Virus record (IMG/VR): IMGVR_UViG_3300035666_000188
Location: 1-21,328 of that record
Reading direction: 5' to 3' (one strand)
Origin: a virus
DNA length: 21,328 bases
In this document: piece after piece, positions 113 to 4,909 of the stretch
How the letters are laid out: each line of letters opens with the position of its first letter
Numbering within the stretch: position 1 is the first letter of the stretch
Translations under genes and position numbers: made by a program
Notes under the pieces: model-generated
Told to the model about the DNA's origin: nothing
Databases searched by the model: none
Seen by the model: only the letters and a program-made list of their open reading frames with translations

Positions 113-616
113 ATGTACGAATCTATCGAGAAACGCTGGCTGATTGTTCGCTGCCATTCCCGGCAGACCATCGACCTGTTCAAAGCCTTGCGAGCTTTTC
201 ACATGGCAGTGTACACGCCGCAGATAACCGTTGTTGGTCGTGTGCCAAGGAAGAAGCTGAGGCGCAAGTCAGTGAAGCCACTCTTGCCCGGCTTCTTGTT
301 CGTGGCTGAGGACGACTACAAGTTCTGCCATTGGTTGTCTGAGAATCACCCAATGCCGAAGTTCCAGCCTTTCTGGGTCAATGGCCGTCACGCGGCTTGC
401 TCAAGCAGAGAGCTTGTTGGGTTGCAAAAGCAGGAGCAGGAAAGGAAGACAGACGAACTCAAAGCTGGCGACTTGGCAGTCATTGGCTCTTCCGTTCTGG
501 GCGGCGAGTACTGCACGATCCTCGAGAAGCAGGGAGCTTATTACAGGGTGGCTCTTGCCAGCTCTGGAAGAGAGATAAAAGTTTCTGCTTTTCTTTTGCA
601 ATCTTTCAACTCATAA
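113..616 (+). CDS. NusG/RfaH-like transcription elongation (antitermination) factor
   Basis: The 167-residue product has the two-domain layout of NusG-family proteins, which bind the RNA polymerase clamp and alter pausing or termination. Residues about 8-65 look like the NGN domain: a starting RWLIVRCH strand, VYTP near residues 33-36, a basic RKKLRRK stretch, then LLPGFLFV at 57-64. Residues about 117-145 look like a KOW domain (KAGDLAVIG, then GGEYCTILE). It is close in length to RfaH (162 aa in E. coli) and shorter than housekeeping NusG (181 aa). GAGGA at 102-106, six bases before the ATG, supports this start. The gene lies directly upstream of a terminator-like hairpin and the late operon, so a phage-specific antiterminator role is a reasonable inference. 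The alternative is a transcription factor that acts elsewhere. The family call is firm; the target is not known. Confidence 0.82.
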   Translation: MYESIEKRWLIVRCHSRQTIDLFKALRAFHMAVYTPQITVVGRVPRKKLRRKSVKPLLPGFLFVAEDDYKFCHWLSENHPMPKFQPFWVNGRHAACSSRELVGLQKQEQERKTDELKAGDLAVIGSSVLGGEYCTILEKQGAYYRVALASSGREIKVSAFLLQSFNS

Positions 617-673
617 GCGATTTCGGGAAATGGTGCTGGCTGGCCTGAGTGCTTCGCTGCCTTCCTGGCTCAG

Positions 674-691
674 AACGGTAATGTTACCGTT
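674..691. repeat. perfect inverted repeat in the leader between the NusG-like and HNH genes
   Basis: AACGGTAA and TTACCGTT are separated by TG, giving an 8-base perfect inverted repeat. No T tract follows closely enough to call it a terminator. It could be a protein-binding operator or an RNA hairpin upstream of the larger hairpin at 728-774. The rest of 617-727 shows nothing I can identify. Confidence 0.4.
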
Positions 692-727
692 GTTTGCTTG
701 CATTGGCTGCTCCTCCTGGTTCTCCTC

Positions 728-774
728 AGGCCTCTCTGTTAACCCACCTCCCGTTAGCAGAGAGGCTTTTCTTT
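728..774 (+). terminator. strong terminator-like hairpin that also holds the HNH ribosome binding site
   Basis: Bases 730-743 pair with 753-766 over 14 positions (nine perfect pairs, one G-T wobble, four more pairs) around a nine-base C-rich loop. The stem is followed by TTTTCTTT at 767-774, the form of an intrinsic terminator. The right arm contains AGAGG (761-765), the only plausible Shine-Dalgarno sequence for the ATG at 775. The hairpin can therefore both stop transcription and hide the ribosome binding site of the next gene. The loop includes ACCTCC, which is the anti-Shine-Dalgarno sequence of 16S rRNA; that may be coincidence. The position between a NusG-like gene and the late operon suggests a regulated stop. 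Confidence 0.72.
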
Positions 775-1192: not shown

Positions 1193-1669
1193 ATGTCTGC
1201 TGCCAGAGGAGCTAAGAAACTCCCATCAAATATTAGGGTCCTGACAGGCAATCGCGGCAACAAGCCGATCAACACAGCTGAGCCAAAAGTGAAGATTGTT
1301 CGTCCACCGGCACCTCGCGATCTGACAGAGCGCGAACAGGAGAAGTGGAAAGAGATGGTTGGCCTTCTCTACTCGGTCGGCGTGCTTGGCAACACTGACC
1401 TCGATGCACTCAAGTCGTACTGCCGCGCTTGGATCTTGTGGCACACGACATGGGAGACGCTGGAGAAGGAAGGCCGCTACATTCACGGCACAGACCAGAG
1501 CGGCAATGTGACGATCAAGGCGCACCCAGCGTGGCAGCACCACTTCACCGCCTTGCACCAAATCCGTCAACTCGCTGCTGAGTTCGGTTTGACACCAGCC
1601 AGCCGCGCAAAGATAAAAGCAGAGGTCGTTCCGAGTGACGCCGACTCCGTCGAATCCTACTTTGCCTGA
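1193..1669 (+). CDS. terS: terminase small subunit, P27 family
   Basis: The 158-residue product matches the P27-type small terminase pattern. This subunit recognises viral DNA and delivers it to the large terminase. Visible features are an N-terminal basic GNRGNKPI segment, a proline-rich stretch ending in PPAPRDLTERE, a helical middle with LGNTDLDAL and AHPAWQHH, and the typical closing motif EFGLTPASRAKI. AGGA lies eight bases before the ATG. The gene overlaps the large terminase start by 35 bases, which implies coupled translation. It follows the repeat-bearing gap that may be its binding site. The family call is strong; the DNA target is inferred. Confidence 0.88.
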   Translation: MSAARGAKKLPSNIRVLTGNRGNKPINTAEPKVKIVRPPAPRDLTEREQEKWKEMVGLLYSVGVLGNTDLDALKSYCRAWILWHTTWETLEKEGRYIHGTDQSGNVTIKAHPAWQHHFTALHQIRQLAAEFGLTPASRAKIKAEVVPSDADSVESYFA

Positions 1670-3440
1670 TCCGACGACCGACTATGCTCGGTCTGTGGTG
1701 GAAGGAAAGACGATCGCAGGACCATACGTCCGGCTAGCAGCGCAGCGCCACCTCAAAGACCTTGCCAATGCAGAAGCTCAACAGCTCGTTTGGTCAGCTG
1801 AAAAAGCCTACAGAGCCATCAAGTTCTTCTCGGACATTCTTACAGTTGAGGTTGAGACACAAGACGAAGATGGCTCTGTCACGAGCCAAGCAGTGCCGTT
1901 TATCCTCCAGCCTTGGCAATGCTTCATCATAGGTTCGATCTTCGGTTGGCTGCGCTCTAGCGGCCTGAGAAGGTTCCGTCGCGCATACGTCGAGATAGGA
2001 AAGGGCAACGGCAAGTCGCCGATGGCCGCTGGCATCGGGCACTACATGCTCACAGCCACTGGCAAGCTCCGTGCTGAGATCTACAGCGCAGCGACCGACA
2101 AGGACCAAGCAGCGATCCTGTTCCGCGACGCAGTCGCGATGTGGGAGCGTTCGCCGCACTTGAACAAGAGGCTGCTATCTTCCGGCGTCAATCCGGTCTG
2201 GCAGCTGACTCATCTTGAGAAAGCATCCTTCTTCAAGCCGATCAGCTCTGACAAGAAGGGCAAGAGCGGTATCCGTCCTTACTGCGCTCTGATTGACGAA
2301 GTGCACGAGCACCCTGACAACTCGGTCATCGAGATGCTGCGAGCTGGCACAAAGGGCAATCAGGATGCTCTGATCTTTGAGATCACGAACTCTGGCTTTG
2401 ACCGCAAGTCTGTTTGCTGGTCCGAGCATGAATACACGACCCGCCTTCTCAGTGGTGAGGTCGAGAATGATCAGTGGTTTGGCTTCATCTGCTCGATCGA
2501 CGATGATGACAATCCTTTCGAGGATGAGAGCTGCTGGATAAAGGCCAACCCGAATCTTGGCATATCGATCCAGCCGCAGTTCATTCGCGAGCAGGTTAAT
2601 GAAGCCAAAGGAATGCCATCAAAGGAGTCAATCGTTCGCCGGTTGCACTTCTGTGAATGGGTCGACAGCGAGACAGCCGCCTTCTCTCGTGCTCAGCTTG
2701 AGAAGGTTCTTGCGCCGGTCGATGCCGAAGAGATGCTCAGGAAAGGCTACAAGTGCTATGGTGGCCTTGACCTTTCGCGCACGAAGGATTTGACGGCATT
2801 TACGCTGACATGGGTCTTGGACCCTGCATTCGACAAACAGGTGTTCGCTTCTAAGACTTGGTACTTCACGCCGAAGGACACGCTGGCTGAGCGATCGAAG
2901 AAGGATCGCACGCCATACGACACTTGGGCCAAGGCAGGTCACATGACTGCAGTGCCGGGTCAGCGAATCAATTATGGCTACATGGCCGAAGCTCTCGCTG
3001 AGTTGGTTGCCAAGTTCCATCCCGAAGAGATCGCCGCTGACCAGTATGGCCTAGAGAATCTTCGCGATCATGCTTCTGAGAAGAACATAACGCTGCCATG
3101 TGTCGTGCACCCGCAAGGATTTCAGCGCCGCAAGGTCAGCGACACCGATGCAGCTGCCTTGGGAATGGATGGCGTTGAAGAGATCGTTCTCTGGATGCCA
3201 GACTCGATCAACAAGCTTGAAGCAGCGATCATCGAAGAGCGAATCACGATCGAAGACCAGCCGGTCAACCGTATGTGCTTGGCTGGTGTCGTTTATGAAC
3301 AGAACAGGACCGGTCACCGGATGTTCGCCAAGGACAAGTCAACGACACGCATCGACGGCGCTGTGTCGCTCGCGATGTCCATAGGGATGGCAACAGTAGG
3401 CGCAGCTCCGGTTAAGAAATCATTTTGGGAAGCCGCCTAA
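1635..3440 (+). CDS. terL: terminase large subunit (ATPase-nuclease)
   Basis: The 601-residue product is a full-length packaging motor and DNA-cutting enzyme of the HK97/P27-associated type. The ATPase domain has a variant Walker A loop GKGNGKS at residues 122-128 and a Walker B segment ALIDE at 218-222. The nuclease domain has acidic residues in the expected contexts: D379 in GGLDLS, D469 in AADQYG and D574 in RIDGAVSLAM, which I infer to be the RNase H-like metal ligands. The start is a GTG inside the small terminase gene, with GAGG at 1622-1625 spaced well for it. Its stop overlaps the portal ATG by one base (TAATG). The protein appears intact. Confidence 0.93.
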   Translation: MTPTPSNPTLPDPTTDYARSVVEGKTIAGPYVRLAAQRHLKDLANAEAQQLVWSAEKAYRAIKFFSDILTVEVETQDEDGSVTSQAVPFILQPWQCFIIGSIFGWLRSSGLRRFRRAYVEIGKGNGKSPMAAGIGHYMLTATGKLRAEIYSAATDKDQAAILFRDAVAMWERSPHLNKRLLSSGVNPVWQLTHLEKASFFKPISSDKKGKSGIRPYCALIDEVHEHPDNSVIEMLRAGTKGNQDALIFEITNSGFDRKSVCWSEHEYTTRLLSGEVENDQWFGFICSIDDDDNPFEDESCWIKANPNLGISIQPQFIREQVNEAKGMPSKESIVRRLHFCEWVDSETAAFSRAQLEKVLAPVDAEEMLRKGYKCYGGLDLSRTKDLTAFTLTWVLDPAFDKQVFASKTWYFTPKDTLAERSKKDRTPYDTWAKAGHMTAVPGQRINYGYMAEALAELVAKFHPEEIAADQYGLENLRDHASEKNITLPCVVHPQGFQRRKVSDTDAAALGMDGVEEIVLWMPDSINKLEAAIIEERITIEDQPVNRMCLAGVVYEQNRTGHRMFAKDKSTTRIDGAVSLAMSIGMATVGAAPVKKSFWEAA

Positions 3441-4909
3441 TGGGCATCATCTCTGATATAGCAAGTTGGCTTGGCTTTGATCGCAAGATGAGCTCTCTGG
3501 AGCTTTGGAAAGAGATCTATGGGTCAAATTCCAGCTCATCTGGGGTGACAGTTAACGCCGAAACAGCAATCAAGGTGTCGACTGTCCTGGCATGCGTCAG
3601 GGTTATCGCGGAAGGCGTGAGCCAGATCCCGTTCAGGGTTTACATCGAGAAAGATGGCAAGCGCGTACCGGCGACCGACCATCCTCTGTACACACTCCTC
3701 CATCGCCGCCCGAATGGTTGGCAGACGAGCTTTGAGTTTCGCGAGACCATGATGCTTCACGCATTGCTTCGCGGCAATGCCTATGCATTCATAAATCGAG
3801 TTGGCTCTGGCTCTCAAAGGCGCATTAAGGAGTTGATCCCTATCAGCGGAGATGTGACAGTTGAGCGCAATGCTGACTACTCTCTCACCTACAAGGTGCG
3901 TGATAAGCAGACTCAAGAAGAAAAGATCTTTCCGCAGGCAACCATTTGGCATTTGCGTGGATTGTCTTGGGATGGATTGGTCGGGATGGATGCAGTTGGG
4001 CTGGCGCGTGAAGCGATCGGCCTTTCAATCTCTCTCGAGAAAAGCCATGGCGACATGCACAAGAATGGTGCAGCCGTTTCTGGCCTTCTTTCGGTAAAGG
4101 ACAATTTGTCCAGCGAGCAGTATGCTGGCTTGGCAGCTTGGCTCGCGAAGTATGAGATCGGCGGTGAGCTTCATCGCAAGCCGATGATCCTTGATCGCGG
4201 CGCGACATTCTCTACGATGCAGATGAGCGGCGTTGATACCCAGCACATCGAGACACGCCGCCACCAGATCGAAGAAATCTGTCGCGCATTCCGGGTGATG
4301 CCGATGATGATCGGTCACCCAGCTGACATGGCAGCGAGAGCAGCCACTGAGTCGATCTTCCTCCAGCACGTTGTTCACACGCTCATGCCATGGTGCGAGC
4401 GCATTGAGCAGTCGGCAGACAACAATCTTTTGACTGAGCAGGAAATCAATTCCGGCCATTACACAAAGTTTACCGTCAATGCTCTGCTCCGTGGAGCTGC
4501 AAAGGATCGTGCAGACTTTTATGCCAAGGGGCTCGGCTCCGGAAACGGCAAGGGCTGGTTGACTCAGAACGATGTTCGGGCGCTGGAGGAAATGGACAGG
4601 GTTGACGACCCGGAAGCCGACAAGCTGCCGCAGCCGCCAGCCCCAGCGCCGGCACCTGAAAACGTCAAGCCTGAGGTCTCGGAAGAGCCAAAGGCATTCA
4701 ATGTCCAGGATCTGAAGAGTGCCATTGAGTCGATGCCTTCGCCGATCATTAATGTCGATGTGAAGTCTCCGGAAGTTAACATCACACAGCCAAATATTGA
4801 AGTTCACGCTCACCTGCCAAATCGCGGCAAGGTTCACAGAACTGCTCAATTCGACGAAACCACCGGTCGCATGACTGGGATGATCGAAGAGGAAGTCGAG
4901 AATGCCTAA
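3440..4909 (+). CDS. portal protein, HK97 family
   Basis: The 489-residue product forms the dodecameric ring through which DNA enters and leaves the head. HK97-portal features include the N-terminal VSTVLACVRVIAEGVSQIPF segment, HPLYTLLHRRPN, LLRGNAYAFI, LIPI, WHLRGLS and the FRVMPMMIGHP region. From about residue 395 a proline/alanine linker (PPAPAPAPE) leads to a C-terminal tail of alternating valine/isoleucine strands ending in GMIEEEVENA. Such tails occur in portals of this type, but this one is fairly long. I chose the ATG at 3440, which overlaps the terminase stop, rather than the in-frame TTG at 3425 inside the terminase gene. It overlaps the next gene by eight bases. Confidence 0.92.
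   Translation: MGIISDIASWLGFDRKMSSLELWKEIYGSNSSSSGVTVNAETAIKVSTVLACVRVIAEGVSQIPFRVYIEKDGKRVPATDHPLYTLLHRRPNGWQTSFEFRETMMLHALLRGNAYAFINRVGSGSQRRIKELIPISGDVTVERNADYSLTYKVRDKQTQEEKIFPQATIWHLRGLSWDGLVGMDAVGLAREAIGLSISLEKSHGDMHKNGAAVSGLLSVKDNLSSEQYAGLAAWLAKYEIGGELHRKPMILDRGATFSTMQMSGVDTQHIETRRHQIEEICRAFRVMPMMIGHPADMAARAATESIFLQHVVHTLMPWCERIEQSADNNLLTEQEINSGHYTKFTVNALLRGAAKDRADFYAKGLGSGNGKGWLTQNDVRALEEMDRVDDPEADKLPQPPAPAPAPENVKPEVSEEPKAFNVQDLKSAIESMPSPIINVDVKSPEVNITQPNIEVHAHLPNRGKVHRTAQFDETTGRMTGMIEEEVENA

Follow-up and report, generated by a model that had tools for sequence, protein, structure and literature searches.

Phage lambda has the gene of its late regulator Q towards the right genome end. 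Among the paralogues of NusG, LoaP carries transcription through an intrinsic terminator and depends on a hairpin of the leader RNA (PMC12691694), and RfaH is recruited by the loop of the ops hairpin together with a TG pause (PMC5995543). The reviewed targets of specialised NusG proteins are antibiotic, capsule and plasmid operons, with rfaH-like genes of prophages treated in passing (PMC7593976). In the accessible part of a report on the Sinorhizobium phage phiLM21 type, a gene annotated as 'transcription antiterminator' is followed by HNH and terminase genes; the region differs from the one described here in that this part offers the annotation alone, the terminator, leader element and mechanism being undescribed in it (PMC12429752). 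Our search of the open-access literature found no description of a NusG-like gene and attenuator laid out as a late switch; since the search covered open-access papers, the novelty of such a layout is provisional.

The stretch analysed in our study (hereafter the window) spans the whole of an IMG/VR virus record (21,328 bases), in which a NusG-family gene (113-616), an intrinsic terminator (730-774) and a late operon follow one another on the plus strand. We consider it reasonably probable that this phage NusG paralogue is a late-gene antiterminator that carries RNA polymerase past the terminator downstream of its own gene. The late operon opens with an HNH endonuclease gene (775-1095; Pfam HNH, 25.4 bits; phrog_589) and continues, all on the plus strand, with the small terminase subunit gene terS (1193-1669; Pfam Terminase_4, phrog_83), the large subunit gene terL (1635-3440; Pfam TerL_ATPase and TerL_nuclease) and the portal gene (3425-4909; Pfam Phage_portal). 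The ATG of the HNH gene, at 775, lies 8 nt behind the hairpin, and this order agrees with the original prediction, which had set the terminator at the entry to the late operon. The gap between the HNH gene and terS (1096-1192) has a probable cos end near 1143: the first base of contig L002, whose terL is 90% identical, matches window position 1143, between HNH and terS; L003, L018 and L019 likewise open shortly before terS, and the records of phages Rivra and PPF1 have their first base in the interval from the HNH-side genes to terS. These contig starts are probably cos ends of linear virion DNA.

By profile search and structural modelling, the product of 113-616 (167 aa, ATG start) is a member of the NusG/Spt5 family, with an NGN domain above the Pfam cut-off (NusG, PF02357; 27.8 bits against 22.2) and a modelled C-terminal KOW beta-barrel; the Pfam KOW model itself has no match in this product. 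Its PHROG match is phrog_6386, 'transcription antiterminator', and it contains the motif PLLPGFLFV. The presence of both domains, proposed earlier as a point to be checked by folding, is borne out by an AlphaFold2 model built together with 19 relatives (pLDDT 86.7), which has an NGN domain at approximately residues 7-110 and, at approximately residues 119-165, a five-stranded KOW barrel with its strands at 121-164. In Foldseek, this model matches two PDB entries best: 8phk (E 8e-7), which shows RfaH bound in the ops-paused complex, and 6gov, with NusG as part of the lambda-N complex. Full-length RfaH and NusG are both matched, with whole-chain TM-scores of about 0.4, which are low probably because the NGN and KOW domains are hinged differently, and with 0.5-0.66 by target length for shorter matches. 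The profile of the relatives' NusG-like proteins also matches the NusG (128 bits) and RfaH (85 bits) of E. coli.

Membership in the RfaH, UpxY and Q families was considered and rejected. The RfaH equivalog models score far below their cut-offs (NF006534, 20.2 against 124 bits; TIGR01955, 14.5 against 144.5 bits), as does the UpxY model (NF033644, 20.6 against 100 bits), and the family profile searches matched solely NusG-type families, with no homology to a Q family. The gene had been called NusG/RfaH-like; the NusG family and the RfaH-type fold were retained, but 'RfaH-like' is apt for the fold and for the probable mode of action and wrong for the family. Our searches found no close relatives of either the NusG-like or the HNH protein of the window. 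A tree was built from 44 proteins; in it, host NusG sequences fall into a single clade (support 100/98), the window's protein is a lone long branch with no firm placement, and a single clade of phage NusG-like proteins is rejected, as the tree forces at least four changes. On this phylogeny, what is conserved is the genomic slot, rather than one lineage of NusG-like proteins.

The terminator hairpin (730-766) has a 14-pair stem, GCCTCTCTGTTAAC / GTTAGCAGAGAGGC; its arms lie at 730-743 and 753-766, one pair is G-U, and the loop of 9 nt (CCACCTCCC) spans 744-752; flanking A-U pairs extend the stem to 16 pairs (728-768), and the T-tract TTTTCTTT, with 7 T in 8 positions, occupies 767-774. Its folding energy is -22.1 kcal/mol, and the region folds better than its shuffles (z -4.26). 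A looser terminator caller over-called and was replaced by a strict one, which demands 6 or more pairs, no more than 2 unpaired stem bases, an energy of -10 kcal/mol or lower, and 5 T in 8. With this caller, 730-774 is the sole terminator on both strands of the 21,328-base window, whereas 20 window shuffles averaged 0.65 each, and no site in them reached -20 kcal/mol. The 14-position hairpin with its T-tract, as first described, is a real intrinsic terminator, in which a G+C-rich stem is directly followed by the T-tract. The loop includes CACCTCC, an anti-Shine-Dalgarno sequence, possibly by chance.

The NusG-like and HNH genes are separated by 158 bases, within which the hairpin lies; the 111-base leader between the NusG-like stop and the terminator (617-727) corresponds to the position of the loading element in relatives. 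No sigma70-like promoter was found in this leader with an E. coli-type consensus, and its folding does not exceed that of shuffles (z -0.37). The model of the relatives' covarying RNA element (R1) has no credible match in the window, even with filters off, and no ops consensus was seen in the window leader, apart from a weak candidate at 648-661. This possible degenerate box, AGTGC-TTC-GCTGCC, may be compared with the AGTGC-NNNN-GCTATG of relatives; for the window alone its p is about 0.07, for a pattern defined post hoc. In other leaders, AGTGC-N3/4-GC occurs in 5 of 12 loci against 0.6 expected, a figure that is suggestive only, because the pattern was widened after looking, and we regard 648-661 as a weak candidate counterpart of the relatives' box, no more than suggested by its sequence. 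An 8-base inverted repeat at 674-691, AACGGTAA-TG-TTACCGTT, had been listed as a feature of the leader. It exists, yet at chance level: there are 2 such repeats in the window and 0-5 in each of ten shuffles. Its candidacy as an operator or a LoaP-like hairpin was dropped on account of this frequency, and its exact matches elsewhere are unrelated.

Relatives were collected through terL, which gave 80 loci from viral contigs plus 39 from bacterial genomes, and the named hosts are nearly all Alphaproteobacteria. Many of these loci have a NusG-like gene upstream of HNH and terminase. The order NusG-like gene, terminator, first late gene and terminase recurs across alphaproteobacterial phages and is shared by the isolated phages phi2LM21, phi3LM21, Nsp-JY10, Rivra and PPF1; phiLM21 also has a NusG-like gene upstream of HNH and terminase. 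This recurring order, as it emerges from comparing the loci, is what is new here. After removal of near-copies, the strict caller found a terminator between the NusG-like gene and HNH in 21 of 26 NusG-positive loci and near HNH in 18 of 50 relatives without the gene (Fisher p = 2.5e-4); among windows taken from structural genes as background, 22 of 718 contain one. One locus scored as NusG-negative (L078) has a NusG-like gene that falls just outside the sequence retrieved for it (L085), which makes the real difference a little greater. The co-occurrence of gene and hairpin, a comparison proposed with the original prediction, is therefore present as an enrichment, but the terminator is not strictly tied to the gene, since about a third of the relatives without it have one. 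In the window and most tabulated loci, the first late start codon stands 8-23 nt behind the hairpin, the rest being uncertain or further away; at this distance a promoter would not fit behind the hairpin, and transcripts of the first late gene therefore have to cross the terminator.

Two subgroups of the relatives carry, according to their aligned sequences, a covarying RNA element between the NusG-like gene and the terminator. The 13 loci of the first subgroup have a common stem (mostly CCYTGA / TCARGG) shortly before the terminator, and most of them add an inner hairpin and the box AGTGC-NNNN-GCTATG. In nine of these loci 94% of cells are paired, with a covariation score of 0.207 against 0.118 for shuffled and at most 0.128 for slid alignments. 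The RNA element model built from these nine loci recovers three more loci of the set (E of about 1e-7); in a whole-genome search, its strong matches, which include the new ones in L145 and L148, all lie downstream of NusG-like genes, and one weak match (E 0.0097) was left uncounted. The second subgroup has a different stem, in which every cell is paired and two pairs are compensated. An Rfam search that covered the first subgroup gave no match in the leaders, and on this basis the elements are absent from Rfam.

Several loci deserve separate mention. Some bacterial genomes carry several prophages that all have a NusG-like gene and a leader element of their own: there are three such prophages in R. 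oryziradicis (G043) and two in Rhizobium tropici (G042). In L014, L074 and L108, two or three consecutive strong terminators lie between the NusG-like gene and HNH, as if several attenuators needed passing. Five loci without a NusG-like gene (L044, L045, L047, L053 and L130) have a near-identical strong terminator, GCGCCCACGGGAAACCGTCGGGCGC, with a T-tract at HNH. The proteins encoded at the same spot in NusG-lacking relatives, for example L037:3118-3870, matched no named family, and they may be other late regulators.

In the antitermination reading that we favour, transcription from upstream would yield the NusG-like protein and then mostly halt at the hairpin 730-774. As the protein accumulates, it would load onto the polymerase within the leader 617-727 or immediately ahead of it and stay attached, and the protein-bound polymerase would pass the terminator into the HNH, terminase and structural genes. 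If the polymerase passes the hairpin with the protein, the hairpin works as an attenuator within the late operon rather than bounding it. We infer loading, read-through and timing, and with them a mode of antitermination like that of LoaP or RfaH, at the position of lambda Q. This reading is favoured by the NusG fold with its RfaH and NusG matches, the sole strong terminator, the 8-23 nt spacing, the enrichment of terminators with the gene, the shared order in isolated phages, the covarying element of the relatives and the precedent of LoaP. Against it stand the relatives' element, not found in the window, the ordinary structure of the leader, the terminators in about a third of the gene-less loci and the weak action of the E. 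coli RfaH at such sites (PMC7819879).

Those gene-less loci bear on a rival explanation, in which the hairpin is plain punctuation that closes an early operon ending in the NusG-like gene, the late genes have a separate promoter, and the protein has its role somewhere else, perhaps as a general factor that counteracts Rho or pausing on every phage transcript. A terminator before HNH in 18 of 50 loci without the gene fits this arrangement, as do the NusG-like genes of phi2LM21, phi3LM21, Rivra, PPF1 and Nsp-JY10, which come after replication-type genes and close the early block, and the gap 1096-1192 could hold a promoter. A late promoter may also overlap the hairpin or lie after HNH, the scanned consensus being E. 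coli-type. However, the first late gene begins too close behind the hairpin to have a promoter of its own, terminators are enriched with the NusG-like gene, and in two subgroups the covarying element lies precisely between gene and terminator. We hold plain punctuation to be unlikely, at perhaps the level of a serious minority view.

With the LoaP and dfn leader of Bacillus velezensis, the locus shares a NusG paralogue, an intrinsic terminator before the target operon and a regulator gene adjoining its target (PMC12691694, PMC7819879), and the recognition element upstream of the terminator in the LoaP leader resembles the leader layout of the relatives (PMC12691694). It differs in that the gene here is a phage gene, in phages of alphaproteobacterial type, and that the relatives' covarying element is of another kind; the UNCG hairpin of LoaP was not found, the window leader being without a detected element. 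With RfaH and ops it shares the NGN and KOW fold and the best Foldseek matches, and in the first subgroup of relatives GC-NNNN-GC followed by TATG resembles the ops loop and its pause-inducing TG (PMC5995543); the spacing in the relatives' element is, however, off by about one base, the ops-like box of the window is unconvincing, and its KOW domain is modelled as a beta-barrel, with no sign of the helical autoinhibited state. As with lambda Q and the late terminator tR', a regulator gene directly precedes a terminator guarding the late operon. The records of Rivra and PPF1 start at terS, and their last genes are the NusG-like gene and a few that follow it; the gene of these relatives is thus found at the right virion genome end, as Q is, whereas in the window the likeness is one of local order only; in addition, no sequence relation to Q was found, nor a separate late promoter between gene and terminator.

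The likeness to RfaH also raises the question of the main target, since the protein might act chiefly against Rho-dependent polarity and in ribosome coupling along the long late operon, as RfaH does, with the terminator partly active and not its main object. The inefficiency of RfaH at intrinsic terminators (PMC7819879), the length of the phage operon and the predicted KOW beta-barrel are compatible with such a role; a strong terminator directly at the operon entry and a conserved leader element in relatives are hard to accommodate in it, and we judge it quite improbable.

The original prediction had the right arm of the hairpin hold the only Shine-Dalgarno sequence of the HNH gene, and suggested that the protein could open the operon to translation as well as to transcription. 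In the window, AGAGAGG (759-765) does lie in the right arm, and no other Shine-Dalgarno-like sequence was found between the hairpin and the HNH ATG; it is, however, a weak match and is not conserved. Because the Shine-Dalgarno sequence of the relatives sits between the hairpin and the ATG in the tabulated loci, outside the stem, it is only in the window that the right arm would mask it, and translational control as half of the switch was given up. Under late antitermination, the window's hairpin may also mask the HNH ribosome site until read-through and translation, as a minor and unconserved effect. That the hairpin controls HNH translation alone through its hidden Shine-Dalgarno sequence, the sole one present, with no transcriptional role, is highly implausible given the T-tract (7 of 8) directly behind it and the relatives that retain hairpin and T-tract with their Shine-Dalgarno outside the stem.

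In a broader and more tentative form, to which we give somewhat less than even credence, phages of Alphaproteobacteria would have repeatedly recruited NusG-family proteins into one slot, each of which, with its own leader element (an RNA stem and an ops-like GC-NNNN-GC box at a pause), would pass an attenuator and turn on the late operon; such a switch would do with NusG proteins what lambda does with Q, and its leader RNAs would form a family new to Rfam. The late-gene switches of phages beyond the enteric model systems are poorly known, and the shared layout suggests a common, largely unstudied one. A layout of NusG-like gene, leader element and attenuator, if repeated, would supply further factors paired with their recognition elements, with which target choice by NusG paralogues could be studied, and it would give a general and easily tested model of late control for phages of Rhizobium, Agrobacterium and their relatives.
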